64,000 nt of DNA from Romanomermis culicivorax (lineage: Eukaryota > Nematoda > Enoplea > Mermithida > Mermithidae). The translations under genes were made by a program, and so were the position numbers. A model generated the notes under the pieces. It worked only from the letters and a program-made list of their open reading frames with translations. It made no database searches and was not told where the DNA came from. Of the stretch, positions 19,146 through 47,818 are shown one piece after another (the first letter of the stretch is position 1; each line of letters opens with the position of its first letter). The stretch covers positions 372,001 to 436,000 of the forward strand of contig CAWUHX010000263.1 in NCBI GenBank assembly GCA_963922205.1. The letters are read 5' to 3'.

Positions 19146-19344
19146 CCGTGTCATACTTCGCCGGGCGCTACCGCGCGGCGCCGTACGGCTCCGCTTTTTT
19201 AGTTTCGGATTTTGCTCTTCTCAAAAATTGTGTATTGCTCGTCTCGACAAATGCCAAATACGAAAAATGCGAAAAAAGATGAAAAATACGAAAAAAAATC
19301 GAAAAATAAAAAGCGTAAAAGAAAAATAAAAACCAAAAATAAAG

Positions 19345-19937
19345 GCCCAGCTAAATTGAACATTTCTAAATCTATTCAAAAAACTTGTACCCAAAATAAC
19401 ATTAGCTGAACAATTCTTTTGTACGGAAGCAACAATGTTTTCATCTACATCGTCTACAGCGACATTTATCATTATAGTTCCTTCTACTGTTATATACCCA
19501 CCAATGGCTGCAGTAGGCTTAATTTGAGTTTCCCTAATATTTATTCCCGGCAGTTTACAAAGTAATTCCTCATCTACCAAAGAAAATACTGCACCAGTGT
19601 CTACCAATGCATGTGCTTCAATGGCTTTATTTAGTAACACTTTTATATGCCGAGTTCGTAGCAAGTTCACAGATATTTGAACTAGACTGACAATCTTTTC
19701 TTGATTAGCTTGTGCTAGCTGAACTTTTTTCCCCATTTCTTTCAACTCAATTTTTTCTTCTATATCTATGTCTTCTTTTTCACCCATCTTATCCTTGTTT
19801 TTATTAATAACTGCTATTCTACTTAATCTTAATAGCGGGTTTCCCAAACTATCTTTGAAACTCGTTTGATGCTGTAAGTTTACAGGTGGTACATACGATA
19901 TACTCGTGCATTTACCCCCCCCCCCCAAATTTGTCAC
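19345..19937 (-). pseudogene. Gypsy retropepsin relic
   Basis: A minus-strand frame encodes a linker rich in Lys and Glu, then HIKVLLNKAIEAHALVDTGA with the retropepsin DTG active site, and NVILGTSFLNRF with the ILG flap-region counterpart. This is clearly homologous to the second protease domain of the element at 26962-43207 (HIKVLLNK...ALVDTGAVFSL and LVLGTNFLGRF). After about 19345 the frame runs into low-complexity Phe-rich sequence, so the element is truncated; its upstream side reaches the assembly gap. Confidence 0.8.
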
Positions 19938-19989
19938 TGCCCAATATCAAATGTGACTCGGGTTAGTACTCTGCGTTGATACCACTGCT

Positions 19990-26156: not shown

Positions 26157-26314
26157 TCTTAATCCATTTGGTTTTTTCTTAAACCCGCAAGTCGAGCTAT
26201 AACTTATTCGCTTTAAAACGGCAGTCAGAAGGCCTACCAAAAAAGTACGTTCAATTTGGCAGATAATTTTTGTGGAGAGGAAAATTTTATACTGTACCGA
26301 AGAGAGGTATTTTC

Positions 26315-26957
26315 ATGTGAGCGATTCCCGAATGAGCGATTCCCAGCTGAGCTATTCCCAAGTGAGCGATTCTCAAGTGTGCGATTTCCAAGAGAGCGAT
26401 TCCCAAGTGAGTGAATTCCCAAGTGAGCGAATTCCCATTTAAGCGATTCCCATGCGAGTGATTCCCAATTGAGTGAAATCCCAAATGAGCGAATTCCCAA
26501 TTGAGCGATTCCCATGTGAGCGATTCCCATGTGAGCGATTCCCATGTGAGCGATTCCCATGTGAGCGATTCCCATGTGAGCGATTCCCAAGTGAGCGAAT
26601 TCCCAATTGAGCGAATTCCCTATTGGTCGATTCCAAACGAGCGATCAATAATGTAATAACACTTTCGTCATATTTTCCTTCTTTACCTTATATTTTTCTT
26701 TGTAAGTACTTCTTTTTTCTTTCGTTTTTTGTGTGTATTGCTCATGTTTTCGTTTATGTATGTTTCTACATTTTCATCTTTTGTCTGTGCTTTCTTTCAT
26801 TTTCTTCCTTCTCGTCATCTAATTATTTCGTTTTTTGCTCATGATACAATACATTACGAGCTGTCATTTTTGTTCAGTTCGGCATGCTTGGGTCTTTCAT
26901 CGTATAAGTGTGAAGATCTTCATAAAAAATATAAACAAAAGAACGAACGAATTAAAG
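26315..26957 (+). mobile_element. Foldback element, left arm (15-bp minisatellite plus unique part)
   Basis: The outer part (26315-26645) is a 15-bp minisatellite of GAGCGATTCCCATGT-type units, with five or six nearly identical ones at 26505-26594. The inner part (26646-26957) is unique T-rich sequence whose reverse complement occurs at 43212-43480 (for example AATACATTACGAGCTGTCAT against the sequence near 43264-43285). The two arms thus form a foldback element of about 1.2 kb into which the LTR retrotransposon inserted near the centre. No transposase was seen. Confidence 0.8.
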
Positions 26958-26961
26958 AAAG
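26958..26961. repeat. Target-site duplication AAAG (left)
   Basis: AAAG directly before the 5' LTR is repeated directly after the 3' LTR at 43208-43211. A 4-bp duplication is usual for Gypsy-type integrases. Confidence 0.85.
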
Positions 26962-28428
26962 TGTCACGTGCCGCTCAATTCTCCAACGTCACGTGATCCC
27001 GATCATGCCGACATTTTGTTATTTTTCATGTTTCGATTATTACTCGATCATGCTTTTGTTTATTTCATTTTTACACATACATTTTGTGTTCGTTTTTATA
27101 TTTTCATGCATTTCTATGTTTCGTTTTGTTGTATTTTTATTTCTTTACAAACGCGGGCTACAGTAGGCCCTTTAGCTAAAAACGTCCGCCAGTCGTGCTC
27201 CACGAGCACATGGCTATTTTTGGTGTGCTCAGGCACCTCTTATCATCAAAATTAGCGTCGTTTTTGTTACGCAAAGACGACTAGCTAAGAAGTTTTAGCT
27301 AAAGACGTTCATATGCTTAGCATAGGCACTGCAGCCGGCCTCAGTGCTAAACGCATGTGAATGAAAAAATGTCTATGTGCTCATAGGCATCTTCTGCATC
27401 GCGTCTAGCTGCAGAAGTTAGCTTGAGCGCCGAGAAACTCCGCCCAAGCTGCAGCTGTAGCCAAACATGTCCTTAAAAGGACATGTTTCTTTAGTTTTTC
27501 GCTCATTCTTGGGTTCACCAAGCTTTCGTCTGGTTGTAACTCCGCGTCCGCCGCTCTTCGTCGAATTTGCATATTTTTATTGTACACCCGTGCGTCCGCC
27601 GCCTTACTACCAATAAATTTGCATAAATTTACCCGTGTTCACTGCGTCCGCCGCTTACCGCCTACAGTACCCCGCTGCCCATCAGTGCCAGGTGTCCGAC
27701 CGCCCCGGTTCGTGAATTAAACGTTGGAGTTTCGCCTCCCGCTCGCTCCCCCGCGCCGCCGCTCACTCTCGCTCGCCGCCTAGGACGTTTGAGGATCGCA
27801 TCCCCCGCTCCCAGTGCCAGAAGACCGAAAGCATCCAGGGACTTGCCGCCCGGTGCGTCGTAATCGCTTGAGAAACAGGACTAGGTGAGTCTTCTCAGGG
27901 GATTATTGTTATTTGTGGGTTATTTGTTGGGAAATCCTTCCTAAGTCGGTTTCCCAAGGTTTCCACAGATAAGTAGGGCCTCCACCTCTCAGGTTCGGGC
28001 TAAAAGGGGCTGTCTGGTTCATAATCGGGTCCCACAAACTGGGTCATTTTACGGGTGACCCTGTCCCCACTCTCACTGAGTAGGACTCGGGGATTGTTGC
28101 ACCTAGCCTGGCAGCGTTGTCCATTACCCTACAGCAAGACCCCAAGGACAACACAAGAGAACCAACTATAGATCTCTCTATAGCCACCATTTGCCAGGTT
28201 AGGCCCCAACGCCAACTTGGGAAGCCTGGGGAAAATGCCAGTATCCATCAGGAGTCACAGCCTATTACTCACTGTAATAGGATCAATCTGATATGGTTCA
28301 CCATCAATGTGACATCTAAAACACGGTATTACCTGATGAGATACCCAAACCTCCCCAGCTCTCCCAAATCCACATGTCATACACGATCCAGGCGTAAAAA
28401 TGTGACATGGATGGCGCAATATGTGACA
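26962..28428 (+). repeat. 5' LTR (1467 bp)
   Basis: Begins TGTCACGTGCC and ends ATATGTGACA. Features are two CACGTG E-boxes near the start (26965-26970, 26990-26995), a 12-bp-stem perfect hairpin at 27463-27488, and AATAAA at 27612-27617 as likely poly(A) signal. Small open frames inside the LTR are not genes. Confidence 0.95.
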
Positions 28429-28440
28429 TGGCGAGGCTGG
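28429..28440 (+). promoter_or_regulatory. Putative primer-binding site
   Basis: TGGCGAGGCTGG follows the 5' LTR immediately and begins with TGG, complementary to a tRNA 3' CCA end. The tRNA species was not identified. Confidence 0.55.
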
Positions 28441-29428
28441 AAAATCGACCTTAAGTCTGGCACTCGCCCTTAAGTGCAAAAAACTTTACCCTTGGGTCAG
28501 AACTACCCCCAGGTCGGGTCAATTCCCATTTTAAGTCGGACAAGCCCCCTTAAAATCGGGTACTAGCCATCCAATAAGTCGGAGACCCCCCCAAATTCGG
28601 GTTTACTGCCTAATGGGTCGGGAATGCCCCTTATTTCGGATTACCGCTACCGTAGGTCGGATACCTCCCCTCAAGCCGCGTATTATTACTGTAAGTCGGA
28701 ATCTTTCCCCGTGCCACCGAGAGTTATTACTGTAGGTCGGGAATTTATCCCTGAACATCGAATTTAATGACTGTAAGATGGGATTTGCCCTTACGAGTGA
28801 TTTAAATGTGATCTATATATGTAAATAATTATCTCATGCGTGTGTATAACCCCCTATGAGTAATAAATCCCCCCTGAGTCGAGTTATTTATCCTCAGAGT
28901 CGAGTTATGTGTCCCAGAGTTGAGTTATATATCGAGTATTCTGTATTTCTCCTCTGATTCATTCTGTACATTCCACATCCTTAATCTGTGTTGTAAACTA
29001 CCTTATCTGTCTCTTTTACCTTATTCCCCCCCTTCTCTAATCCTAGGTGGTATACTGTAGCCCTCCGGGTGGGTGCCATTACAGTACGCCTATGCCCATT
29101 CCCGTACTGTAACTACAGTATACCCATACGCGGGTACTGGTATCACAGCGGTAGGGGTTTACGGCCTCTCCTGACTGTTGGGGGTCCGTGACCCCCTGAT
29201 ACCGTACACCCTCCACGTATGATTCTGGACGTCGTACGTGGCTGCGATTTGTTAATTGTGTACAGTATTTTTGTCTGTCGGCGGAAACCGTCGGAATTGC
29301 TCACTTTTCCAGCCCCAAAATTTTCCATTTACTGTTTACACACTTAACACGCGTATGTCCATATATCGTATTCCCCTTCTTTGGTTGTCTTCCACTCCAA
29401 TTCTTTCCTCAGGTCATCTGAGCGGTGT

Positions 29429-29464
<36 letters not shown>

Positions 29465-32083
29465 CTGTTTTTCTGATACCACTGCTACAGTATGACCCCT
29501 TACGTAAGTTTCTCTCTCTTTCTCATTTCTACTTACTGTAAGGTCTCTGTTTCTTCTATTCTCCGGTTGTTGCATCTCGAACATAGACTTTACGGGTCAT
29601 GCTCTTTGACGTCAGCAACAACAATGTTACGGGTTGTTGTTGTTGTGTGGTTCAGCCCCACGGATGCAACCACCGAAGTCTGCAACAGCCGCTTCACTTG
29701 CTGTTGCTTTGAGGGGTGGGTAGCCCTCCGGGTTCTACTCCTGACGTCAGCAACCGACATTACGTGTTGTTGTTTAAGTTAACACTCCAGCAGTAATGAC
29801 TTCTGACGTCTGCAACAGGTGAAGCCTACGTTGTTGTAACAGGTTCGGCTGGTTCTCTGCACCCCATCTGTGACGTCAGCAATGGTGACGCACCGTGTCA
29901 CTATTCAAAGATGTGCAGGTCTTACGGGTGCCACATCTGACGTCTGCAACAACTGCATCTCATGTCATTGACTTAAGGTATCGGACCCTCGGTTCCACCT
30001 TTTGACATCAGCAACGACAACACCATGTGTTACTGTATACAGATAGTTGGCTTCAGGGCCCTATCGCTGACGTCAGCAATGACAATGTATCATGTTCTCG
30101 CAGCAGGAATTGAGATTACATGATCCTATTTCTGACGTCCGCAACGGTAACATTACGTGCTACTGCAGGGGTTCTGTTGGCCTTAGGCACTCACCCCTGG
30201 CGTCTGCAACTGCGACATGGTACTTGAATACTCTTATCCCAGGCACCTGCAGTCAGCACCAAGGTCATGCGTTGGTTCATACCCCCACCTTTTGACGTCA
30301 GCACCAGGTTACTGTCGGCCCTATGAGTATTCCACTTGAGTTGTAGGTGGTTGCTGGCGCATGGTCCTATCACCTACCTCTCTTGTCCTAGGGTTGTGTG
30401 TGTCTGGGGGCTGATGCCTGGGAAACATCAGTCCACATATATACACCACCTGAGATGCTCACTAGCCTGCGTACTGATCAGGTTGTCCGCCCGGGTAGCG
30501 GCACTGTTGATCAGCACGTGGCTGTTCTCAAGCTTTAACTGCAGGTTTGAACGAGTTACACTCGGCCTCAGCTGGGTTGGTTGTCTGACTCGTGCAGGCA
30601 GCAGGCATTTGCAGTCGGTACTGCCTGTGTCTGACGTCCGCAAGAGTTCGGCAATCTTCTTGTAAATTTCTTATCTAAATTCACTCATTCTCTTTCATCT
30701 CATCGAGCTGTCATACATAGATCTTCTTTAGTGTCCCCGCCGTAGTGGTTCCCAAGGGACCGCGGCACAGCCTCCGGTTGGGCCTAGAGTGTATAGGACC
30801 CCCTGTCATATTTCATTCACTCGAACGCCTTCGTTAACTGGCTTAACGATGCCCGCGCTAGAGTCGCCACTGACCCAGAGTCCGCCTCCGCGGTCCACCC
30901 CTGTTAGTCATGTAAAGTAGTAGGCACCGTTGAGTCCGCCTCAGCGAAGGTATTGAGTACGCCTCGATACATATTTTACACTCATATTCAATCAGGGACA
31001 CCTTGTACCCGTGATCCCTTAGATGTTTTCGGGTGCGCCCTCAAAACATCCAGAGTAATTCATTTTAACTGACTGAGTGTGTCAGAATAGCACCCTTGGT
31101 ACCCGTGCTCCTTCCCTCTTCTACTGTGTGACCTGCGAACCTCACTTCATCTCAGTGATCGGCAAACCCGGCCACCAGCTGTACATAATACTCCTGGAGA
31201 GTGTCCGTTCTGTTCGGAATGCGGGCTCCCGTTTCGGACACGGCTGTAAGTTACTTGCGAATGTCGTCCAACACGGAACCTCCTGTATAGTCCATCTCAC
31301 TATGCAGAGATCGCAATCGCTCCTGGCGAGTGAGGCCCGTTGTGGAACTGCAGGACCCCTTTGTGTAACTGGGTTTGTAAATTAGTTTTGTCCCTATTTA
31401 TTGCTCCCTTTTAAGTTCACTTTCAGTTGACCCCATCCTTTTCACCTTATGCCACTTTATGCGCTACTCCTGGTGAGTAGGATCTTGCCAGCCACGAGTC
31501 CGCCTCGCCCCAAGGTTTGTAAACTAGTACAGCGGTCGAACCTCCAGGAAAAATCCCTCCTGAGCGGGTTCATCCGTCATCTTATTTTTCGGCAGGAAAA
31601 ACCGCCTCTTCTCCCCTCTTATCGCTGATCATCCGTCCACTTCAGCTATTGCCATTGCCGGGTCCAGGCCCCAACTCTACATTTTCGGTCGGGATCGATT
31701 CCCCCATACCTCAGGCCATGCCTCTGTCCATCACGGGCGACCAGATAAATTCCCTTCTGCGTCACCCTGATGTACTCTGATCTTACATCTTATAATCCTA
31801 TTCCATTCTAGCTCCCTTTTCGTGGTCGCTAGTCTTAAGCTAAATCAAGTTTACGTCACAAACGCCGTCACGCACGCGTTTCCCGAATTCACGCGCTCTT
31901 TCGCCGCGAATTCAAAAGTAGTACTCACTTTCATTCTACACAATAGAGACACCCCGTCGTTCCTGCCGTCTCAGTACCCAGCCTGTACAGACCAGTGAGC
32001 CACTCTCTATCCAATTTGACTTAATTGGTTCACGGGCAAGGACGTCTGTTCTAACCACCTTACGGGAAAACGAACCCTCGGAC
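28441..32083 (+). other. Long non-coding leader of the LTR element
   Basis: 3.6 kb without a convincing gene. It begins with a degenerate array of GTCGG/TCGGG phrases every 30 bp or so (28448-28790), then T-rich sequence with a 31-bp poly(A) (29430-29460), then the TGACGTCA-type site array (29607-30639), then sequence with AGTCCGCCTC repeats (about 30860-30980 and 31495). Confidence 0.7.
29607..30639 (+). promoter_or_regulatory. Array of about 11 TGACGTCA-like (CRE/bZIP-type) sites
   Basis: TGACGTCA or one-base variants followed by GCAAC occur at 29607, 29742, 29804, 29871, 29938, 30003, 30068, 30133, 30293 and 30632, with a weaker one (GGCGTCTGCAAC) at about 30199. Most are 60-70 bp apart. 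The core is the palindrome bound by CREB/ATF-type bZIP proteins. The regularity also fits a decayed tandem repeat with a conserved core. Whether it acts in transcription or in RNA form cannot be told from sequence. Confidence 0.6.
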
Positions 32084-33835
32084 ATGAAGTCGGAAGCTGA
32101 TCTCCCTTCACAGATCGAGAACAAAGTCCAGGCAGCATTTGAGAATGCTCTTGGACCCCTCAACCAAAAGTTAGAGGCCATGAATGGTCGGAGGCACCCT
32201 CCCGTGTCCAGCTTTATGGCCCCTCCCACCTTCTCCCGTGCTTTTGGTGAGTCTATCACTGATTTTATGTCGCATCTTACTCATTTCTTTACACTCCAGG
32301 GTGTAAGCGAAACGGATCATGCGTATAAAATCGCCTTTCTGGAGTCATGCCTCACGGGTCCTGCTCTTGCCTCCTACCGAGACTTTAGCAGCAGCACTCC
32401 GATACCTACCCGCTACGAAGAGTTTACGGCTTTTCTACGGAGAGATTTTCCGGTAGGGCGCGACTCTGACCTGCATCAGCAGCTGATCCAAGATCGACTG
32501 CAGAAGCCGACAGAGTCCGCGATAGTCTACCTTGAGCACCTCAAGAGACTATCCAGGGTAGCGTATCCAGATCTCGCGACGGATGTCCGAGATTCTATCA
32601 TCAAACCTATCTTCCTGCGAGGACTGAAGCCGGTCCTCCGAGATAGTATCAAGTTTAGGGAGTTCACGACTCTTGAAGAGACACTCAAGGCAGCCTGTTA
32701 CGCAGAATCCCAAATCTTTCGGGACGAGATCCGGTACACTGCTCCATCTAACGCCGTTTTCTCTTCAGAACCTAAACACGCCGGATATAATCCCGATATG
32801 CCTAACAGAAGCGCAAACGGTCGTCAGAGCAACGCTCCAACGTCGTCATCCTCCGCCGATGAGGTTCGCCGCTTGAAACAGGAAATGGCCAGGCTCACGG
32901 CCCACGTAGCAAAGCTCACGGCCCAGCAACGTGCACCCGCGCCAATCCAACAGATGCCGCCTCCACAGCCGTCGACACCAAATCAGTCCGCCGGGCGACG
33001 CTCGTCGGGAGCACACCTTCAAACGTGCTCCTTCCACGGACTGTGTACACATAGCGACGCCGACTGCCGGGCCCAGCGTCCCACCGGTGCGGCTCCCGGT
33101 AACAACGCCGCTAACGGTGGTCGCTGTTATTTTTGCCGTACACGTGCCCACCCCACGGACCGATGTGATAGGCCATGCCCTCATTGTCGTCAAGTGCGAG
33201 TGCACCGATCAACTGCCTGTCCGCAGCGCAATCCGGCAAACACGGGTGAGAATGTCTACCAAGATACTGGTTATTCTTCCCAGGGGACAAATGTGTATCA
33301 TCAGAGAAGTGGTTATCACCCTCCTAACGGGATGGGAAACCAATATCGGCAGCCCATACGTCGCAACAACGCCGTTGGGGCTACCGATGGCCCTCCTCAT
33401 CCAGATCCTCTTGACCTGGATGATGAGGCACTTGCTGAACACCTGACAGATTCTTCACAACAGTGTTATCCTGTCTGTGTAATCAGTATTGGATTTTCAG
33501 TGGTCCAAGCAGCCCATGTACCCGTACCGATGAATGTATCGGACATACCGCTGCCACCACCACCACCAAAGTATGCGATGCCGGTCACTCTGGACCTCTC
33601 GATGACACCGCAGTTTGTTGGCCACGCTAACATCCTCGCATCGTATCACATTCCTAAAATTAAGACTGCCGAGCCAGCTCCAGCCGCGAATACGACGTCT
33701 TCGGCGCCACCGGCCCGCATCGTCCCTCCAGGACCACCGCCTTCGATCCCCACGGATTCGGCTACGGAAGTCCTCGACCAGGTCGAGCCCATGAATTTGT
33801 CAGGTATACTACCTTCTTCTTCAGGTGATCCTAGA
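32084..33835 (+). CDS. gag: Gag: capsid and nucleocapsid region
   Basis: The frame opens at ATG 32084. Residues about 40-225 have the retrotransposon Gag (capsid) pattern, including FLESCLTGPALASYRDF, YEEFTAFLRRDF and IVYLEHLKRLSRVAYPDL. A Pro/Gln-rich spacer and a short Leu/Lys coiled stretch (EVRRLKQEMARLTAHV) follow. The nucleocapsid carries a zinc knuckle CYFCRTRAHPTDRC (CX2CX4HX4C, Cys348-Cys361), a second CPHCRQVRVHRSTAC with one extra residue in the loop, and an imperfect CSFHGLCTHSDADC upstream. It then becomes Pro-rich. The open frame continues to 35146, but from about 33835 it is out of register with the coding-like frame, so I end Gag here. It should form the particle and bind the genomic RNA. 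Confidence 0.85.
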
Positions 33836-34626
33836 GTAGGAACCAGAAATCTATCTCAGTCCACGACTCTATCGATTTCTTGTTCACAGCGCCATCGCCC
33901 GTCCAAGACGCGATGTTGGCCATCTGGTCAGTTGACCTGGCCAAGAAATACCCGCATTTGCCGTGGACTCTGCTCAACGAGCCATCGCATGTCGAAGCGC
34001 TCACGGCCGCCGACGTCGTGCTTGCAGCACCCGTCTCGATGCGACTCTTACGACCCGACGTCGCCCGACGGGCACTCGAGTTCATTGCCAATGGGACTAT
34101 TACAATCTCGCCCCTCGAGAAGTTCTAATTGGACGGGGAGCCATCCTCGCCTTCAGTCGATGCCGTCCGCCGAGCAGTCGAACAGGCCAGTCGGATCCTC
34201 CTGCCTGCTGTCGCCGCTACATCACCGGCAGCAGCGCCACCTGTTGCCGCGACATCCCCAACAAAAATGGACATTACTGTTTCCTCCCCCCCGGCCAAGG
34301 AACCCGCAAATGGTCCAACACTGTCGGCAACAGCCCAAAATACATCGTCGGCAACAGCCCAAGTCAAATCGCCGGCGCCAGCCCAAACGACATCTCCGAC
34401 CGCTGCGACCAAGTCGCCCGTCGTCGAACACATGGCCATCGACGAGACCTTACGTCCGGTTAACGAAGATGTCAGCATCGTTGAGGAATCTCCGTTCCCA
34501 ACGGCAGTCGCCCCACGGTCGCCAAAAATCGGTATCCTCCGGGAAATCCACCCGTGCGGTGGATTGGTCCTCGATTTCCCCGGCCAGGAGCCAATTTCGT
34601 CCGACAGCGACGAAGAAGAAATCTGA
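33836..34626 (+). pseudogene. Gag C-terminal continuation in another frame, with a stop
   Basis: The coding-like frame here is shifted relative to Gag. It reads FLFTAPSPVQDAMLAIWSV, then ALEFIANGTITI up to TAA at 34126-34128, then a long Ala/Pro/Thr-rich stretch and an acidic end SSDSDEEEI before TGA at 34624-34626. Composition suggests a single disordered Gag tail interrupted by one stop and joined to Gag by a frame change. It could alternatively be a separate small ORF beginning after the Gag stop. Function unknown. Confidence 0.5.
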
Positions 34627-34639
34627 CACTGCCCCTCAG

Positions 34640-36430
34640 GCCAGATTTGTGAAATTGAGTGAACACTTACAAATTACGTTTGTACAGTTGTTTTTGACAA
34701 CAAAATTGACCTTGGTAGCATCACTGTTTCTAGAGGTGAGTTTGTCAGCACCGGCGGCTCAGTATCAATTTTGCGGTCTCTCAAGAAGCGGACATCCACT
34801 TGAGTTACCCCAGCGTGTAGAGTGTAAACCACCGCAATCTTCATGGAGCCCGCGGCGCATGAATGTTACGGTGTATGTCCCTAGTTCAGACCCGATTACA
34901 GCCACAGCGTGGAAATGCACATTGCGCTCCCGCAAAGTCTGCACCAACACTGGTTTCTTCGGCTCTAGGGGCATCACTGCAGACGTCATCACCACTCAGC
35001 ACTTAGCGCCTGCGGCATGCACGCTAGCACATCGCACTAAGATGTTTGGTTCACAAAAACTTGTCGGCGTTCGCCCTGGCTTTTATAGCACAAACCAAAC
35101 ATTGGAATGTACGAATGGTGCTGCAGTGACGTCTGCAAGACAGTGACTAACCTCTTCATCGAGGAGGGACAAGTCGCTTCGTGGGATGGCACTACGGCCC
35201 TAAGCACCTTAGGCGATGTAGGTGGATGCAGTCCCACTGCAGGCCAGTGCACTACTCTAGACGGGGTCATTGTCTGGCCTGCACAAAACTTCACGGCGCG
35301 GTGTCATTATCACCCCAAGGGAAATTACACTGCGTTCATGTCAGGGAACCACGTCATCATCGATGATCTACAGGTTGCCCTCAAGATCCCGGGAAACTCC
35401 CGCGTCTTCCAACTGTGCCCAGAACTACGTTCCACCACAGTCCGGACGGATCAGGGTCTTCTCCTACGCATCCACGGGAGATACAATTTGACCCAAAACT
35501 TGTTCAGAGTGGCAACGGACAGCCGTCCCGATCCTGTCAATGCCAAACTGAACTACCTGGCTCAGCAGATCAAGGAGTCGGAAATTAACGGTTTCCGGTT
35601 CACGTGGCTTGAGCTCTGCTCTCACGCTCAACGCTACCTTGATCTGACTTGGCAGTTGCTTCGCTTCGACCCTACTCTGGGTGCCCGGGCATTCCTCCAG
35701 AGGAATGACCTGACGGCGGAATTCACAGGCGATGCGCTGACAATATGGCCGTGTCAGAAGGTCAACGCCACCTACGTTTACCACTCGTACCGGGTGGGGA
35801 ATGTTTGCTACAAGTACTTACCTGTACAGGTTGGCGGCACCATCTACTTCGCCACCCCCGGTGGTCCGGATCTCATTAAATCTAGCCCAGTTGTGCCGTG
35901 TCATCACCACTTTACAGGGATTTTCCGAAATCGCTCGGGCTGGTTTACTGAGTCTGGCGCGGTCCATGTGAGCCACATCCCACTGGAGCTCTTCTGGAAG
36001 CAGCGTTTCAACATCACTCACTTTGAGGCACCGGCGCTCTTCCATGACCAGTTGGCGATGACCCCTTCAAACTTTGCCTTCTTTAAACAGTACGTTTACA
36101 AGACTGAGCAAATTGAAGAGGTACTCAACCGGCTGGTAAACTTTACCGCTGGTCTATCCCTGCAACCAGACGCCATTTACCAGGCCTTTGCAGGGGTAGG
36201 AACCAACATCAAGGCCTCTCTGGAAGGTGTCGGTTTGGCAGCAAACCATGTTATTACAGGTCAACAACACACCCTCGTCCAGGGCTTGCATGCTGTCCTG
36301 AGCGGGCCGGTCCAGCTGATCTTTAACATCCTAATTACCCTGACAGTGCTGATCGGTGTCGGATACCTTGCCTATCTTGGTGTATCTTATTATCTCAGCT
36401 ACCGTCTGCGGAGCAAACAGGTCAGGTTTG
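34640..36430 (+). CDS. Env-like glycoprotein domain (broken by one frame change)
   Basis: A splice-acceptor-like CCCCTCAG ends at 34639. The frame that follows has a hydrophobic signal-peptide-like segment ending LSAPA (about 34670-34755), then a Cys-rich region. The frame changes within 35107-35146 and continues to a single strong membrane span (ILITLTVLIGVGYLAYL, about 36328-36378). Between them lie at least eight N-glycosylation sequons (such as QNFT, GNYT, YNLT, VNAT, RNRS, FNIT, VNFT) and many Cys, the mark of an extracellular domain of type I topology. The spacing IWPCQKV...GNVCYKYLPV...VVPCHHHF recalls glycoproteins of chuvirus-like elements, but that is a suggestion, not an identification. 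It lies upstream of Pol and shares a frame with it, which is unusual for Gypsy elements. Confidence 0.65.
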
Positions 36431-36479
36431 TTAGCCGTTTCTCCCCGTTGGGTCTTTACCGCAAAGTCCAACGCTGGAT

Positions 36480-37870
36480 CGGTTTTCACTACGTGCAAAA
36501 CGATGTGCCTTCCCAGCTTGACCCAATCACACCGTGTTTTGTCGTGCTGCTGGACACCAAGGAAACTCCTGCTTTCCTTGACACGGGTTGCCCCCGCACT
36601 ATCATTAGCCAACGCCTTCATAAGGCTTTGGCTAAAGAAAGTCCGAAAGCGGTCATGGCGTTCCAGCAACATCACGACTTTAACCCATTGATGAGCATCA
36701 ATGGTAAAGCCGTTCATACCATCCTTTCGGGACCATATGAAATCATGTTGCCCGGAAACCGCCAGCCGAACACACGGATCGATATACATCTCCATGTGTG
36801 CAAGACTACGTCTCCCTTCTGGGCACCTGTTGACCTCATACTCGGACTGGACTTCTTAGAACAGTTCAAGAACATTATGTTTGACTACCAACGTAATGTT
36901 TGTCGGCTGGACACGGTAGAATTACCCCTCCTACTGACCACGCCGGAGATTGACCAGATCGACCCCTGGTGGGAGAACACCCGTGCTCTCTCGCGAAACT
37001 CACACAGGTCGGGATCACGATCGCAGTCCAGGGCTTCGTCCATCTCTCGGCCACACTCACGGGCCTCCTCAGTTGCCTCATCACGTGGGTCAACTAGGGG
37101 ATCCCGGGCCTCTTCTAGACGGGCAAGTCGTCGTCTGTCGACCTTGCACGGGTCAGGTTGCCCTCGACCTCCGCCTGGAACCTCTCCAGTCACGCTAGAG
37201 AAAGGCCGATACCGTGAGCCAAGTGATTCAGATGCTCCGGCATCACCCGTACCAAACGCGCCACCGCTATCGGATACGGAGATTGAATCACTAGGAGCTA
37301 CTCAGAGCCCGAAGGATCACTCAGACCATGTACTAACGGTGCAGGATGAGTCCACCCTTCTGAATGACCCGGAACCCTCCGTCGGCTACGCTCTGGTAGG
37401 TCTACTACGTCGTACGGGACTGCCGATTCCAAAGCGGTCCGGTAAGACCGAACACACTTGTGGTGCCACCACACCTGATTCCGGTCATGTGGTCACTGCT
37501 TTTTACCCAAATGATATTCGGACACCCCATATCAAAGTTCTCCTCAACAAATGGGTAGAAGCAAAGGCACTGGTCGACACAGGAGCTGTTTTCTCACTCC
37601 TGGACCACAAGTTAGCGGCCCAGCTGCCCAACTTGTCACTATCACCAACCAGGGCACGCCCTATCACAGCCAATGGGTCCCCGATCCCACTGCTAGGAGC
37701 AGCCTACATCACAGTTACAGTGGCTGATGTCTCTGAACGGATTCAGGTCCAAATACAGGAGAACTGTTCAGCTGAACTGGTCCTTGGAACCAACTTCCTT
37801 GGCCGGTTCAATTGTGTCAGCTTGAACTGGGAGAAATCCTTCCTCCAGTTCAAAGAAAGTAGAATCCCCT
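36480..37870 (+). CDS. Two retropepsin domains separated by an Arg/Ser-rich linker
   Basis: In the frame 35107-38550 (1147 codons) the first protease has TPAFLDTGCPRTIIS (Asp492) and DLILGLDFLEQF (about 577-588), beginning about 60 residues after the membrane span. A linker follows (about 625-690) packed with RS/SR dipeptides (SRSQSRASSISRPHSRASS). The second protease has KALVDTGAVFSLL (Asp824) and ELVLGTNFLGRF (about 890-901). Both keep the DTG active site and the ILG/VLG motif of retropepsins, which normally act as homodimers. Two complete domains in one polyprotein could form an internal pair or be cleaved separately. The solitary relic at 19345-19937 matches the second domain. Confidence 0.8.
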
Positions 37871-38199
37871 GTGACGGTCTCATCCACAGCCCACCTTCTG
37901 CCCGCGGCGCCTTGCCCCTGAAGGACTTGGTAATTCTGGAGCCTCGCTCCCTGACACGATTCACTGTCCCTGTTCCACCAATCTATACGAACGTGCCTGA
38001 GGTGGCCTTCTTTCCGAAGCACCTCACCGGATCTCAAAGACACGTATATTTTGCTGGAAGCGTGAGTAGCGTGACCAACGGTCCCATACCACTTCAGGTA
38101 GTCAACCCGAGTACTCATTCCGTGGTTCTCTACCTGCACACGACCATCGGTCATGTGCAGATGCATAGTGAGCCCTCACGGGAATCACCGGTCGACTCA

Positions 38200-39640
38200 G
38201 ACACCGTCCTCGATCGTCAGTGGGTCGAGGCCAATGCTGTAATCTCACCGGACATCTCCCCTCCGGACCGGGCAGCCTTACTCGATCTGCTGGTTGCATA
38301 CACTGACCTTTATGCTCTTGATGAAAAGGACACAGGTTCCACTGATCTCGTCCAGCACGAAATCAGCACGGGCGATGCCCGCCCAGTCCGCCGTTTCCCT
38401 TACCGGTCCTCACCTAAGGAGAAGGATCTCATCATGCAAGAGGTCAAGGCGCTCCAGGAGAAAGGTATTATTCGGCCGAGCACGTCTCCGTGGGCTACTA
38501 ATACTGTCCTGGTGCGCAAGAAAAACCGGTTCTCACCGTATGTGTGTTGACTTTCGTGGTCTTAACGAGGTTACGAAAAAGGATGTCTACCCTCTCCCAC
38601 GGATAGATGACATTCTCGACACACTCAAGGGTATGAAATATTTCACAACCCTTGACCAGGCTAACGCTTACTGGTCAATCCCGATTGCCGAGGCGGATAA
38701 GGAAAAGACGGCTTTTAATACGCCTATTGGACTTTACGAATTCAATTATTTGCCTTTCGGTTTATGCAACGCGCCAGGGAAATTTCAACGCCTTATGGAC
38801 CTCCTCCTTACTGGAATCCAATGGCGCACGGTTCTGACTTATCTCGACGACATTTTGGTGTTCGGGAACTCTCACACCCAAATGCTTGAGCGCCTGGCAG
38901 ATGTGTTCGCCCGTCTTCGCCGGGGTGGAATGAAGCTCAGACTGAGCAAGTGCAAATTCTCGCACTCAGAGGTAGAGTACCTAGGCTATCGCATCTCACA
39001 GAGCGGCCTAGAACCTGACCAAGCCAAGCTGGCCGCCGTCCAAAACCTACCCATTCCACAAAACGCCAAAGACATCAAGTCCTTCCTAGGCCTCGTGTCT
39101 TACTACAGGCATTTCATCCCTGGTTGTGCCCGGCTCAGCGAGCCACTCACCAAGCTCTTACGGAAGGAAACTACTTTCCAGTGGTCAAAACCTCAGCAGG
39201 AGGCGTTCGATGAACTCCGCCGCCTGCTGACCAACCCGCCTATCCTGCGCCATCCGGACTTTTCGAAATCCTTTATCCTTCAAACTGATGCGAGTATTTC
39301 GGGGATAGGAGCGGTTCTTAGCCAGTTAGACGAACATGGATACGACCATCCTGTCGCGTACGCCAGCCGAGGGTTAACAGCGGCCGAGAAAAACTACTCC
39401 ATTACAGAACTGGAGACTCTCGCTGTTGTCCATTTCGTCAAGCACTTTCGACCGTACCTCTTCCAGCACGAGGTGGTCGTTCAGACTGACCATACCGCGG
39501 TCAAAGCAGTGTTGGAGAAGCCTAACCCCTCTGCTCGGATCGCTCGGTGGGGACTCGCGCTCGCCGAATTCAAACTGACAATTCGGCCGCGAAAAGGTCA
39601 GTCAAATGGTAATGCCGATGCATTATCACGCCTGCCGGAT
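38200..39640 (+). CDS. pol: Reverse transcriptase and RNase H
   Basis: RT starts in the frame of the proteases (QWVEANAVISPD, then IIRPSTSPWATNTVLVRKKN up to about 38520) and continues one frame over after a break at about 38515-38530 near AAGAAAAACC. The second part is in the frame 38294-41221. It shows CVDFRGLNEVTKKDVYPLPR, FTTLDQANAYW, the LPFGLCNAP block and the catalytic YLDD (residues 183-186 of that frame), then the connection and RNase H with ILQTDASISGIGAVL (Asp332), AYASRGLTAAEKNY and NADALSRL. The break looks like a single-base indel rather than a programmed site; an assembly error is possible. Confidence 0.93.
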
Positions 39641-39699
39641 CCTAACTCCCTCACCGGTCAGAGTATTGATGATACTCCCCTCTACAGACCTGAGGGGCA

Positions 39700-39880
39700 T
39701 GTTATGATGATCACCGATGGTGCGCAGCACCTGGCGAGATCAAGAACCTTGACCGATGGTGTGCAGCACCTGGCGCGTTCAAGTAATTCAGCACCAATCA
39801 CTGTTGGCGCGGAGCGCCCGGTACGATCAGAGTCTTATGCCGAGATATCGGTTGGTGCGCAGCACCCCGACCTTTTCGCT
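39700..39880 (+). repeat. Fourfold repeat in the RNase H-integrase linker
   Basis: The coding sequence repeats a motif read as TDGAQHLARS, TDGVQHLARS, TVGAERPVRS and SVGAQHPDLF, about 35-50 bp per unit. It lies in the spacer between RNase H and integrase. Confidence 0.8.
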
Positions 39881-41221
39881 GCTCAGCTGGAGGATCCGGA
39901 CTTAGCCGACATCATTCGCTCTCTTAAGCCTCTGGGCGACCAGAATGATGTGCGGGGCTACCATCTGTTGGATAACGTCCTTCAGAAATGGACAGGCGAG
40001 TCCAACAAGATCATCATACCCCGATCCATGGTTACTACCATTATCCGGGCTCATCATGATGACATCTTAGCTGGACACTTTGGTGCTAAACGTACTGCGC
40101 GGCTCATTGCTCGCAGATACCACTGGCCTTCCCTCAGTCGGGATGTCAAGTCCTTCTGTCAGCGGTGTGATCTTTGCCAATGGAATAAGCCCGCTCGACA
40201 GAAAACCACTGCGACCCTGAAACCTATCACCATCACGGGACTGTTTCACCGGGTAGGTGTCGACTGTATGGGACCAATGACCACTAGCGAAGCTGGCAAC
40301 CGTTTCATCGTAGTCTTTATCGACTACTTTACAAAATGGGTCGAGGCTTTTGCTACTCCGGACATCACTGCGCACACCATAGCCCGGCTGTTTGTAACGC
40401 AAATTGTCTGCCGGCACGGGGCACCGCAGATTCTTCAGTCAGATCGTGGCACTGATTTCACATCAAAACTGATGACTGAGATCACTGCGATCTGCGCAAC
40501 GAAGAAAATCCACTCTACCGCCTATCATCCGATGACCAACGGTGAAGTGGAAAGAGCTAATCAGACGCTAGCCACACGGCTACGTATGTATGTTCATCAT
40601 GGACATACCGATTGGGATGAACACCTACCATACGCTGTGTTTGCCGTCAATATCAGCATGAATGAGTCAACAGGGTGCTCGCCCTTTGAACTCATGTACG
40701 GTCGCACACCCATGCTCCCTGTTGATGCCGCGCTCTCATTCAACCCTCCGGCCCATATCATTAATGTTTCCTCATATGATATGGAGGTCAAACGTCATTT
40801 CACGAATGCGTTAACCCTAATCCAGAGTCGGATTGAGAAAGCACAGGAGGCCTATGCACGGTCGTACGACCGGAAGGCACATGATGTCTCGTACATAGTA
40901 GGGGATCAGGTGCTCAAACTGCGCACCTCCAGCAAACGTGGACTCACTCCTAAATTGCTGCCCATCTACGATGGGCCCTACCTTGTAACAAGTGTGGCAT
41001 ATCCCAATGTCACACTTCGTCTCGAGATGGATCAGGAAGACACTGTACATGTCAACCAGCTTCGACTTTACGTGTCCCCTGAACAACCGAGTGAAGCAGA
41101 GGATACACCTCCCACTTCACAGGCAACAGGTTCGGCACCCTTATTGTATCCCTCAATAAGCCGGGACTTTACACCAAATCTGATTGACCCACATCTTGAT
41201 GCAGAGGTCCCCGACCCGTAA
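39880..41221 (+). CDS. Integrase, H2C2 and DX35E with GPY/F-like end
   Basis: Residue numbers follow the frame starting at 38294. Zinc finger HHDDILAGHFG (His587 onward) with CQRCDLC; core Asp657 (VDCMGPM), Asp717 (QSDRGTDF) and Glu753 (NGEVERAN), exactly 35 residues between the last two. Blocks LPYAVFAVN and SPFELMYGRTP follow, then a GPYLVTSVAYPNVTLRL end of the GPY/F type. The frame ends with TAA at 41219-41221. The protein should join the cDNA ends to target DNA; the AAAG duplication is its footprint. Confidence 0.93.
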
Positions 41222-41730
41222 CTCAAGATGCATTCTCTTCATTGTCCCCGCTTACGGACGAGGACGTCCTTTTTCGAAGGACCGCCGTGCCCCTCACGAA
41301 GTGTCCACTCTTGTCCATGCTGGATCTTAGTGGATAGAAGAGAGCGTTCAGCAACCGCGTCACGCCTTAGGCGCATCCACACGCGATAGCCTACACTTCA
41401 CTGGGTACATCCCCTGCGATAGCCGGACAATCTGTACCTCACTGGGCGCATCCTCTGCGATAGCCTACATCTTGCCCTGAAAATTTTTCTTTTCTGTGTT
41501 CCAGACTTTCGCACAGGATATTCAATGTCGGCAACTTCACGCATCAACAACCTCCGGTTACCATACCGCCGAACGAATTACGATCAAAGAAGGCTTCATC
41601 CGCCGACAACCCAACGGACCTATTCGACCACTTCCGCCGTCACACCTTGGAATGACCCACGGACACGCCGTACAAAACCTCACTACTAACAACTGCAAGG
41701 ACGAGGACGCCCTTTTTCGAAGGACCGCCG
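41222..41730 (+). other. 3' UTR of the LTR element with duplicated boundary sequence
   Basis: GGACGAGGACG(T/C)CCTTTTTCGAAGG and the following ACCGCCGTG occur twice, at about 41260-41292 and again at 41699-41731, the second abutting the 3' LTR. A short CACTGGG(C/T)(A/G)CATCC-CTGCGATAGCC phrase is repeated at 41398-41470. No ordinary purine-rich polypurine tract is visible before the LTR. Confidence 0.65.
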
Positions 41731-43207
41731 TGTCACGTGCCGCTCAATTCTCCAACGTCACGTGATCCCGATCATGCCGACATTTTGTTATTTTTCATGT
41801 TTCGATTATTACTCGATCATGCTTTTGTTTATTTCATTTTTACACATACATTTTGTGTTCGTTTTTATATTTTCATGCATTTCTATGTTTCGTTTTGTTG
41901 TATTTTTATTTCTTTACAAACGCGGGCTACAGTAGGCCCTTTAGCTAAAAACGTCCGCCAGTCGTGCTCCACGAGCACGTGGCTATTTTTGGTGCGCTCA
42001 CGCACCTCTTATCATCAAAATTAGCGTCGTTTTTGTTACGCAAAGACGACTAGCTAAGAAGTTTTAGCTAAAGACGTTCATATGCTTAGCATAGGCACTG
42101 CAGCCGGCCTCAGTGCTAAACGCATGTGAATGAAAAAATGTCTATGTGCTCATAGGCATCTTCTGCATCGCGTCTAGCTGCAGAAGTTAGCTTGAGCGCC
42201 GAGAAACTCCGCCCAAGCTGCAGCTGTAGCCAAACATGTCCTTAAAAGGACATGTTTCTTTAGTTTTTCGCTCATTCTTGGGTTCACCAAGCTTTCGTCC
42301 GGTTGTAACTCCGCATCCGCCGCTCTTCGTCGAATTTGCATATTTTTATTGTACACCCGTGCGTCCGCCGCCTTACTACCAATAAATTTGCATAAATTTA
42401 CCCGTGTTCACTGCGTCTGCCGCTTACCGCCTACAGTACCCCGCTGCCCATCAGTGCCAGGTGTCCGACCGCCCCGGTTCGTGAATTAAACGTTGGAGTT
42501 TCGCCTCCCGCTCGCTCCCGCTCGCTCCCGCGCGCCGCTGCTCACTCTCGCTCGCCGCCTAGGACGTTTGAGGATCGCATCCCCCGCTCCCAGTGCCAGA
42601 AGACCGAAAGCATCCAGGGACTTACCGCCCGGTGCGTCGTAATCGCTTGAGAAACAGGACTAGGTGAGTCTTCTCAGGGGATTATTGTTATTTGTGGGTT
42701 ATTTGTTGGGAAATCCTTCCTAAGTCGGTTTCCCAAGGTTTCCACAGATAAGTAGGGCCTCCACCTCTCAGGTTCGGGCTAAAAGGGGCTGTCTGGTTCA
42801 TAATCGGGTCCCACAAACTGGGTCATTTTACGGGTGACCCTGTCCCCACTCTCACTGAGTAGGACTCGGGGATTGTCGCACCTAGCCTGGCAGCGTTGTC
42901 CATTACCCTACAGCAAGACCCCAAGGACAACACAAGAGAACCAACTATAGATCTCTCTATAGCCACCATTTGCCAGGTTAGGCCCCAACGCCAACTTGGG
43001 AAGCCTGGGGAAAATGCCAGTATCCATCAGGAGTCACAGCCTATTACTCACTGTAATAGGATCAATCTGATATGGTTCACCATCAATGTGACGTCTAAAA
43101 CACGGTATTACCTGATGAGATACCCAAACCTCCCCAGCTCTCCCAAATCCACATGTCATACACGATCCAGGCGTAAAAATGTGACATGGATGGCGCAATA
43201 TGTGACA
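41731..43207 (+). repeat. 3' LTR (1477 bp)
   Basis: Same TG...CA limits as the 5' LTR. It differs by roughly twelve substitutions and a 10-bp tandem duplication of CTCGCTCCCG near 42515-42530. AATAAA lies at 42381-42386. Confidence 0.95.
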
Positions 43208-43211
43208 AAAG

Positions 43212-43770
43212 AATAGAGCGTGCCGAATTATATAAGAGTTATATGAGAGACAAAGCCTTGAAAATGACAACTTATAATGTATTGTTTCATGAGCAAAAAA
43301 AGTAGATGTCAAGAAAAAAGAAAACGAAAGAAAGCAGAGACAAAAGATAAAAATGGAAAAAGATAAATGAACGGAAACATAAGCAACACACAGGACGAAA
43401 GAAAAAGGAAATATGTACAAAGAAAAATATAAGGTAAAGAGGGAAAATCTGAAGAAAGTGTTATTACATTCTCTACCGCTCGTTTTGAATCACTCAATTG
43501 GGAATTCACTCATTTAGGAATTCGCTCAATTGGGAATCGCTCGCATGGGAGTCGCTCAATTGGGAATTCGCTCATTTGAGAATCCACTCAATTGGGAATC
43601 GCTCACATGGGAATCGCTCAGTTGGAAAGTCGCTCAATGGGAATCGCTCACATGGGAATTGCTCACTCGGGAATTCACTCACTTGGGCATTCGCTCACTT
43701 GGGAATCGCTCAATTGAGAATCACTCACTTGGGAATCACTCATTTGGGGACCGCTCACTTTGGGAATAGG
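43212..43770 (-). mobile_element. Foldback element, right arm
   Basis: Reverse-complement counterpart of 26315-26957: unique A-rich part 43212-43480, then the 15-bp minisatellite of GGGAATCGCTCAC(A/T)T units (43488-43770). The minisatellite units of this arm are more varied than those of the left arm. Confidence 0.8.
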
Positions 43771-46160: not shown

Positions 46161-46673
46161 TGCTCGATGGAGGTCGTCTATAATTTGGTAAGAAGGCATA
46201 CCATATATAATCCTGTGTTTCACATTTTTCGGGCAATTTTTATGTGTCAAAAGACTGGTGGAGAAGAAACCCAACTTTCAAGCATACTGCGGACGGCAGT
46301 ACTGGGAAAATTTTGTCTATTCATCGGGTCATTGAAGAAAATAATCAACTTGTCTGATCATTCCAAAACATAAAAATTTTCTTTAATGATTAAAGTAATA
46401 AGCTTACTAATTTTTCCTCGTTGAACTTGATTTGATAGGATCACTGCATCAATGATTTCAGAATAAATGGAGTATGGTAAGTCTGATAGCATACGATACA
46501 ATCAGGTAGGGAATAAATCATGTGTGAGAAATTTTGGAGCAAAAACATCGAGAGTCATCGCGTGAATGATCAACAAGTCAGAGAAATTTCTGTCATTATT
46601 CTTCCATTTATAAGGATTCCAAGAAAGGATTATGATACCTTCCTGAGAGATTTCACCCCGTCAGATAACATAC

Positions 46674-47290
46674 AACAAATTGAAAATATCTTTTGACAAA
46701 ACATTTTATGTGAAAGTTCAAAATCACACAGTTATGGTAAACACTGCATGTTCACGTTAATTAAACCTTGATGAATGTGCTCTTTTTTCATTTCATTTGG
46801 CATGAAAAACATTCTGTATGAGAGTAAAAATTGACATAGCTACAGTAAGTACTGAATGTTCACTATTTAATCTCGATTAATGTGCAGATCCCACGAAAGT
46901 CTAATCAACTAGAAACAATAAATTTCAACCAAGATAGTTTCTTCCAAAAATCCTTTTGAACACTAATTACATAAAAAAATTACGATTGTTTTCTTTAATA
47001 AGCTGATTAAATCATTAAAATTTCTCTAGTACTTCCAACAGGCACTTTCATATATAATTATAGACTTTCGTGGGATCTGCACATTAATCGAGATTAAGTA
47101 GTGAACATTCAGTACTTACTGTAGCTATGTCAATTTTGACTCTCATACAGAATGTTTTTCATGCCAAATGAAATGAAAAAAGAGCACATTCATCAAGGTT
47201 TAAGAAACGTGAACATGCAGTGTTTACCATAACTGTGTGATTTTGAACTTTTACATAAAATGTTTTGTCAAAAGATACTTGCAATTTGTT
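46674..47290. repeat. Near-perfect 230-bp-arm palindrome with 157-bp loop
   Basis: 46674-46903 is the reverse complement of 47061-47290, ungapped, with about seven mismatches noticed (about 97%). A transcript across it would fold into a long double-stranded hairpin. No ORF or terminal duplication was found. Confidence 0.9.
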
Positions 47291-47818
47291 GCGGAAGCGA
47301 TATCGAGCGCGATGGAAAAATAAGTTTACTACGTTTAGCTCATCGCGAGGATAGAACATTTTCTAAACTAACGATGTAGCGCCAAGTGAAGAAGGCCAAA
47401 TTTTTAATTTCTGTCCATTTTCATCCCGGTTTTCTGTAATATTGATGTTTATTTGGGGATTTTAATCCAATTTATGGCTGGTGTGCATCTGCCCGACTGA
47501 TTTTGTTTGAAAATTCTTTTAAAATTTAGTATTTTTGGAAATATCAATTTTTTTGCTCTTTTTATCATCCGTGTTGTTTTAATTTCCCTAATTCCAGATA
47601 ACTTTTACTTTCTTGATATCTTTGACGTCGGAGTATCAACTCTTGAAAAATTTAAACAGGTGGAAAATTACTATTTCTAAAAAAATTAAAATCGCCACAG
47701 TAAGCTAACGTGTCGCTGGTGATATCGCGCCAACGCTAGACTGTTCCCGAAGCGAGGATAGCTTCGCACGATAAGTGACAGTGAGCCCTGAGTTATATTT
47801 AACCAGGATAGTGTAAAC
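47291..47818. other. No gene seen
   Basis: Contains GC-richer phrases with GCGAGGATAG at 47344-47353 and 47751-47760, otherwise featureless. Confidence 0.35.

Follow-up and report, generated by a model that had tools for sequence, protein, structure and literature searches.

A Ty3/Gypsy element of Romanomermis culicivorax with a class III-type Env between Gag and Pol, probably expressed as a single polyprotein

A 64,000-nucleotide stretch of the genome of the nematode Romanomermis culicivorax (contig CAWUHX010000263.1, positions 372,001 to 436,000; hereafter the window, whose numbering we use) contains a 16.2-kb Ty3/Gypsy retroelement at 26962-43207 that encodes an Env-like glycoprotein between Gag and Pol. 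The coding order is Gag, gene X, Env, PR1, PR2, reverse transcriptase (RT), RNase H, integrase. We consider it likely, with a probability of about two in three (0.66), that genomic RNA is translated into a single polyprotein, i.e., Gag, a basic link, an internal signal peptide, Env, a membrane span, PR1, PR2, RT, RNase H and integrase, in which Env would be luminal and Gag and Pol cytosolic. At the level of sequence, our analysis establishes the element order, a long open frame in most scored copies, selection on the measured pieces, the homology of Env, and the location of Env upstream of PR-RT in other elements. The coding features are as follows; frame A is the frame of the polyprotein and frame B that of gene X.

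32084..33910, + strand: Gag, frame A; Pfam Ty3_capsid, E 3e-7; two CCHC-like knuckles; PPxY at 33563-33574
33911..34639, + strand: frame-A link from Gag to Env; basic (50 K+R and 5 D+E among 252 residues)
33913..34626, + strand: overprinted gene X between Gag and Env, in frame B; ATG at 33913, TGA at 34624-34626; about 237 codons, acidic end
34640..35106, + strand: N-terminal part of Env in frame A, beginning with a predicted internal signal peptide (about 34640-34759)
35107..36315, + strand: body of the Env ectodomain, class III fusion-protein type by homology (PF24664)
36316..36372, + strand: Env membrane span; hydropathy 2.26 over 19 residues
36511..36930, + strand: PR1, an extra retropepsin-like domain; DTG at about 36580; partial match to Pfam gag-asp_proteas, E 0.0029, below the cut-off
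36931..37500, + strand: S/R-rich linker between the retropepsins; no Pfam match
37501..37920, + strand: PR2, the retropepsin common to relatives; DTG at about 37573; gag-asp_proteas, E 9.5e-9
37921..39680, + strand: RT and RNase H; RVT_1, E 3.2e-33, and RT_RNaseH_2, E 1.4e-36; frame break at about 38.5 kb in the window copy
40016..41221, + strand: integrase and end of the polyprotein frame; Integrase_H2C2, E 1.6e-20, and rve, E 1.3e-8

An earlier note on this DNA, made from its letters alone, had proposed an Env-like glycoprotein between Gag and Pol, and homology, relatives and selection all bear this out. The stretch 35089-36400 matches the Pfam family PF24664 (Monjiviricetes_fusion) with an E-value of 2.7e-14, which passes the cut-off; a weak second match, to BDV_G (E 8.4e-4), falls below it. 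Given this match, three alignable relatives and a ratio of non-synonymous to synonymous variation (pN/pS) of 0.07, the segment is not a chance resemblance. Judged by family homology, Env is a fusion glycoprotein of the class III type, to which gB and the chuvirus glycoproteins belong. The two Env pieces hold 2+7 sequons and 5+11 Cys, in keeping with the note's description of a Cys-rich ectodomain with at least eight sequons, and the single membrane span that it described lies at 36316-36372. A span also follows the ectodomain in the three relatives (the proteins P0002, P0012 and P0069). The four Envs are 33-41% identical to each other; eight Cys columns are present in all four rows of their alignment, and 16 are common to the two rows with a complete N-terminal end.

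The signal-peptide-like segment was also part of the earlier description, and it stands by alignment: its identification and position derive mainly from its alignment to P0069, whose signal peptide is clear. Its hydrophobic core is only moderate. In a tblastn search, residues 5-124 of P0002 align to 34751-35107.

We also followed the suggestion to compare the ectodomain with viral glycoproteins using Foldseek. The query was an AlphaFold model built from the four alignment rows, with a mean pLDDT (predicted local confidence) of 42, as against 33 for a two-row model; in the four-row model, a long helix precedes a beta region that is better predicted. The best matches are chuvirus and mononegavirus glycoproteins, and the first 32 matches in the Protein Data Bank (PDB) are herpesvirus gB. 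Among the 26 viral matches with E at most 0.001, all those with names are glycoproteins, including chuvirus-like, mivirus and rhabdo-like ones, one from a bornavirus and an entomopoxvirus gB. Because the model is weak, we take this result as agreement with the sequence match and not as independent proof of the fold. When PDB sequences were searched with the Env piece, all matches were weak (an adhesin, E 0.013; gB, E 0.15), and scans of viral contigs with P0002, the Env piece of the window and a two-row alignment found no relative.

The window copy is damaged, so the reading frame must be judged in part from other copies. In the window, one open frame extends from 35089 to 38550 and covers the Env body, both retropepsins and the start of RT. 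To this extent the earlier statement that Env runs in frame into retropepsin and RT holds; it does not hold for the signal-peptide part at 34640-35106, which in this copy is out of frame with the remainder of Env. Alignment of P0002 by tblastn places frame changes in Env at about 35.1 kb and in RT at about 38.5 kb. The break in Env is due to a short deletion that is absent from 40 other copies examined.

We searched the genome (359 Mb in 595 contigs) for further copies. With Env as the query, at least 96 copies were scored (of 3801 candidates), including that of the window, which are stop-free and 97-100% identical; the other 95 are at 97-99%. At 59 of the 96, the surrounding open frame reaches 3000 codons or more, which is the length from Gag to integrase, and in 38 cases it has exactly 3092 codons. 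A query with RT, which does not presuppose Env, gave at least 108 scored copies (of 8558 candidates), 62 of them with a frame of at least 3000 codons. Seven other loci were checked piece by piece: the Gag tail, signal peptide, Env and PR1 are in one frame, and in one of the seven the frame changes inside the linker. The usual layout of the family is therefore a single frame of Gag-to-integrase length, of which the window copy is a damaged example.

The note had also asked whether other copies lack the Env segment. We examined 20 of the 46 copies that the RT query had found with a frame below 3000 codons. In fourteen, every piece from the signal peptide through Env, PR1 and the linker to PR2 is retained at 0.94 or more; five (L090, L091, L097, L101 and L102) are without most of Env, and one (L094) is without parts of it. 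The ends of the gaps differ, except between L101 and L102, which are neighbours on one contig. Among the copies listed, this looks like decay rather than an Env-free sister family. As a separate observation, contig C17 of this genome assembly (G000) has a truncated copy repeated locally in tandem at about 1.930-1.954 Mb, where three RT copies are spaced by about 12.2 kb and the open frame of each has 1883 codons. Two of these copies were checked; both keep about one third of the Env body, and neither keeps its N-terminal part.

To measure selection, codons were compared pairwise in 20 copies (ectodomain, span and tail, PR1, linker) or 40 copies (Gag tail, X, signal peptide). The Env ectodomain has 85 distinct synonymous and 25 non-synonymous variants, and its pN/pS of 0.07 is the lowest of the pieces measured, with PR1 close at 0.08. 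Read in a wrong frame, the ectodomain gives 1.56. The ratio is 0.20 for the Env span and tail, 0.21 for the linker (over 36931-37476), 0.30 for the signal peptide with the N-terminal part of Env, and 0.43 for the Gag tail. Stops occur in the compared Env-to-linker stretch of 4 of the 20 copies. The LTR (long terminal repeat) pairs of nine out of ten copies could be compared, one of them over 1073 bases only, and are 97.5-100% identical. From these ratios and identities, we conclude that Env has been kept by selection in a recently active family.

Relatives from other sources show Env in a similar position. A protein search with the Env piece, in which 7994 candidates were scored, gave one relative, P0002, which is 40% identical over 96% of the piece and has PF24664, a retropepsin, RT and RNase H in one chain of 1424 amino acids. 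When the pol part of P0002 was used as the query (7975 candidates scored), 120 of 1323 matches were listed, and among these 120 PF24664 is found in P0002, P0012 and P0069 (E 1.6e-17 to 1.3e-16). A profile of the four Envs matched only those four among 129 proteins, and a profile that includes P0002 has the RT of a solved Ty3 Gag-Pol structure among its two best matches. P0069, which comes from another source, is a single frame of 2294 amino acids with Gag, a clear signal peptide, Env, a span, PR, RT and integrase. P0002 and P0012 have Env, PR and RT in one frame. As predicted, P0002 starts just before the first Cys of Env and P0012 starts inside Env; because of these start points, the two proteins are evidence of an Env-Pol fusion, not of what lies upstream.

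We inferred an RT tree from 53 rows chosen from 128, none of which is named as an errantivirus. The window element, P0002, P0012 and P0011 form a clade with support 100/100. In the best tree, P0069 and P0028 are outside a 95/95 branch that holds the others; a single clade of all five is not rejected (approximately unbiased test, p 0.113). Either the layout is old and has often been lost, or Env has moved between lineages into the same slot. P0011 (1903 amino acids) is one Gag-Pol frame that has a signal-peptide-like and a membrane-span-like stretch with no Env ectodomain between them. It is important to consider that 37 of 120 proteins have a hydrophobic 19-mer upstream of RT, and hydropathy alone therefore does not single out Env-bearing elements; the interpretation of P0011 as a stub depends on how two hydrophobic stretches between Gag and PR are read.

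Between Gag and Env, the element carries a second gene in an overlapping frame. Over 33865-34623, pN/pS is 0.19 in frame B versus 1.97 in frame A, and both the ATG and the terminator of gene X are conserved in 40 of 40 copies; the window copy has a private internal stop. Constraint passes from frame A to frame B close to this ATG (33913). Synonymous and non-synonymous variants in frame A number 13 and 10 before this codon and 14 and 33 after it (Fisher P 0.039), and in frame B they number 7 and 18 before and 27 and 20 after (P 0.025). Splice sites were ranked with a simple consensus score, and an acceptor-like site at 33824, where 36 of 40 copies have AG, scores among the two highest at 31900-35100. 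In 39 of 40 copies the first ATG after this acceptor is that of X, which makes splicing of an X RNA a reasonable supposition. X is probably made from RNA spliced from the strong donor-like site after 27884 in the 5' LTR (score 10.5; its 11-mer is in 19 of 20 LTR pieces) to the acceptor at 33824, and may have an accessory function. Neither Pfam nor a BLAST comparison with the 129 proteins gives a match for X.

Given this arrangement, the simplest product is a chain from Gag to integrase, because unbroken copies have no stop between Gag and Env and because in 35 of 40 copies frame A lacks an ATG at 34640-34750 with which the signal peptide could begin. In such a chain, the internal signal peptide would send Env into the lumen of the endoplasmic reticulum during translation, while Gag and Pol would remain cytosolic; we infer this topology, with Gag and Pol on one side and Env on the other, from the rules for membrane proteins in which a single span comes after an internal signal peptide. 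The placing of Pol on the cytosolic side is as the earlier note expected. Signal peptidase would then cut Gag from Env, and the retropepsins would cut the Env tail from Pol. Membrane-tethered Gag and Env-Pol would assemble at membranes, and Env, if it functions as a fusogen, would fuse the particle with a target cell. PPxY motifs function in budding via the ESCRT route. The Gag tail has PPKY or PPRY in 40 of 40 copies, which fits such a role in aiding budding; a PPxY occurs in the first 500 residues of 2 of the 46 proteins above 1400 amino acids that were compared, and the Gag part of P0069 is without one.

Several points weigh against this single-polyprotein reading. The amino-acid sequence of the frame-A link shows no selection, as reflected in the frame-A ratio given above, and a frame-A stop is present within the X and link region of 6 of 40 copies. 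That frame A is open across X is only mild evidence that reading through matters, as it is only weakly above chance: frame-A stops inside X number 0.16 per copy versus 2.58 in shuffles that preserve frame B synonymously (P 0.0075-0.11 in the 12 of 38 copies listed), and of the B-synonymous variants seen, 1 creates a frame-A stop versus 3.9 expected. However, the control frame C likewise has fewer stops than its shuffles (5.00 versus 7.39), so the test leans in that direction. The best 15-mer of the signal-peptide core scores 1.84, a value equalled by a stretch of Gag. Only P0069 among the relatives has Gag upstream of Env in one chain. The Env model is poor, with Foldseek TM-scores of about 0.2. 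The copies share recent ancestry, so that variants and counts are not independent. Finally, a strict 1:1:1 ratio of Gag, Env and Pol would be unusual.

One alternative is that Gag is made from unspliced RNA and Env-Pol from a spliced subgenomic RNA, with no Gag-Env fusion as the main product. The earlier note had suggested such an Env-Pol mRNA from an acceptor-like site ending at 34639, and our results do not favor it. In its favor, 39 of 40 copies agree exactly over the acceptor stretch, and strong donor-like sites are available at 27884 and 31472; the lack of amino-acid selection in frame A across X and the frame-C control would also suit this explanation. However, such conservation is unremarkable in young copies, the acceptor ranks only 49th in the element, and the scarcity of frame-A ATGs means that an upstream exon would have to supply one. 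Moreover, an unbroken frame continues from Gag: frame A is stop-free from 33488 in the Gag tail to 35083 in the N-terminal part of Env in 32 of 40 copies, and P0069 has Gag and Env in one chain. We therefore regard this alternative as unlikely. Frameshifting, whereby ribosomes would continue from Gag into X and regain frame A for Env-Pol by shifting +1 where X terminates, is very improbable. X does end 14 bases before 34640 with its conserved terminator, but the switch of constraint near the X start suits a separately started X rather than a Gag-X fusion, and we saw no slippery heptamer in the codons of 33782-33905.

A different possibility accepts the polyprotein and concerns what Env does, which might be mainly to anchor Gag and Pol to a membrane as an assembly platform, rather than to mediate cell entry. 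P0011, within the 100/100 clade, keeps both hydrophobic stretches in one Gag-Pol frame without the ectodomain, so membrane threading seems able to outlive the fusogen. However, P0011 may merely be decaying, and it is the ectodomain that has the lowest pN/pS of the measured pieces. Its Cys and sequence are also kept across four divergent elements, as expected of a working fusogen. We consider a mainly anchoring role unlikely. As for a one-off insertion, rearrangement or assembly artefact, the broken frames of the window copy might have raised this suspicion. However, Env is found at 95 or more other places in the genome, with 59 copies in frames of at least 3000 codons, and three proteins from other sources carry it upstream of PR-RT. 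The genome copies found with Env and with RT, together with the loci checked piecewise, refute this explanation, and we assign it a negligible probability.

The anatomy of the element is secure, and its remaining features are these.

26958..26961, no strand: target-site duplication AAAG, 4 bp; second copy at 43208-43211
26962..28428, + strand: 5' LTR (TGTCAC...GTGACA), 98.7% identical to the 3' LTR
28429..28444, + strand: primer-binding-site position TGGCGAGGCTGGAAAA, adjoining the LTR in the window copy
28445..32083, + strand: leader, 3.6 kb, with no listed open reading frame (ORF) of at least 120 codons at 29000-31900
41731..43207, + strand: 3' LTR, 98.7% identical to the 5' LTR

The LTRs end in TG..CA. 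Among eight other copies in which duplications could be tested, five have 4-bp duplications and three are without; the primer-binding-site position is also directly 3' of the LTR in all eight readable copies. The polyprotein frame ends only 509 bases short of the 3' LTR, which leaves no room for a second env, and nothing env-like is present 3' of pol. Nine TGACGTC motifs, several of them followed by [A/T]GCAA(C), are spread across the leader at 29607-30638 and are possible regulatory or packaging repeats. Both tandem retropepsin-like domains have a DTG, while P0002, P0011 and P0012 have a single domain; perhaps PR1 and PR2 form a built-in dimer. PR2 is 37-48% identical to the PR of P0011, P0012 and P0002.

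Inverted arrays of a 15-bp repeat (GTGAGCGATTCCCAA) lie on either side of the element, at 26297-26870 and 43261-43769; the element was probably inserted within an older foldback-type repeat element. Elsewhere in the window, a relic at 19221-19946 on the - strand has a retropepsin 51% identical to PR2 and derives from a related family. A tblastn search with P0001 and P0002 found no other Env match in the window. By eye, an integrase-like ORF of a different LTR element is at the left edge (208-699), and 46673-47291 is a large inverted repeat, with 231-nt arms that are 97% complementary and 157 nt between them.

Consistent with Ty3/Gypsy (Metaviridae), the element has TG..CA LTR ends, a short duplication, a primer-binding site and the order PR-RT-RNase H-integrase with a Ty3-type capsid. 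It departs from the group in the position of Env, which is between Gag and PR rather than 3' of pol. The metazoan errantiviruses of Chary and Hayashi (2025) reportedly carry Env as a separate gene 3' of pol. They resemble our element as Ty3/Gypsy elements with Env across animals, and some gypsy elements share type III fusion glycoproteins with RNA viruses (PMC13172572). An ORF downstream of pol is the usual position of env, as with the Env-like ORF3 of bdelloid elements (PMC5408684). We also considered the Troyka superfamily, which requires LTR ends 5'-CG..CG-3' and 3-bp duplications (PMC12440569); the TG..CA ends and 4-bp duplication found here do not agree with this.

Captured glycoproteins in LTR elements are already known. 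Atlas virus and other hookworm belpaoviruses are similar in being intact LTR elements with one long polyprotein (2828 amino acids) and a glycoprotein related to a family of negative-strand RNA viruses; Atlas virus differs in that its order is Gag-Pol-Env with the Gc-like part C-terminal, it belongs to BEL/Pao, and its fusogen is of the class II, phlebovirus-like type rather than class III (PMC9094657). The Anakin elements of mosquitoes combine an LTR element with a chuvirus-type glycoprotein of the same broad kind as PF24664, but are BEL/Pao, and the accessible part of the source makes no claim of a Gag-Env-Pol order that we could find (PMC7642597). Fossils of Jingchuvirales glycoproteins are found near Gypsy fragments, with no clear Gypsy capture reported in a 2023 follow-up (PMC10084718). 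Cer1 of Caenorhabditis elegans likewise has Gag-Pol without an intervening stop, and its CERV, an accessory protein made from spliced RNA, partly in its own frame and needed for export of genomic RNA, is a parallel to X (PMC10309623). Cer1 differs in that it is not known to have a viral-type Env.

What may be new is the arrangement with Env between Gag and Pol, of which we could find no description in the literature consulted, although the survey of metazoan errantiviruses may cover such a layout. We would give even odds that these elements are a distinct class of LTR retroelement, defined by a membrane-threaded Gag-Env-Pol chain (capsid, internal signal peptide, class III fusogen, span, Pol), with two positions in the best RT tree of Gypsy elements, recent activity and a high copy number here and, in this family, an overprinted accessory gene. 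In such a chain, capsid, fusogen and polymerase would be joined within a single molecule threaded through a membrane, and this would be another route by which a retrotransposon becomes virus-like. It raises questions about the Gag:Pol ratio, the packaging of Pol, and the persistence of the span after loss of the fusogen, as in P0011; the many young copies make tests of RNA and protein in the host practical.

Alphaviruses and flaviviruses offer a parallel to this chain, as their structural polyproteins have a cytosolic capsid, an internal signal peptide and a luminal envelope protein in one chain. They differ in being RNA viruses without a reverse transcriptase, and we claim no homology. Retroviruses have the order gag-pol-env and make Env from a separate spliced mRNA (PMC10309623), so that retroviral Env and Gag-Pol meet only at assembly. 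If our interpretation is correct, the element described here would have solved the supply of its envelope in the manner of alphaviruses, and not by means of a spliced env.

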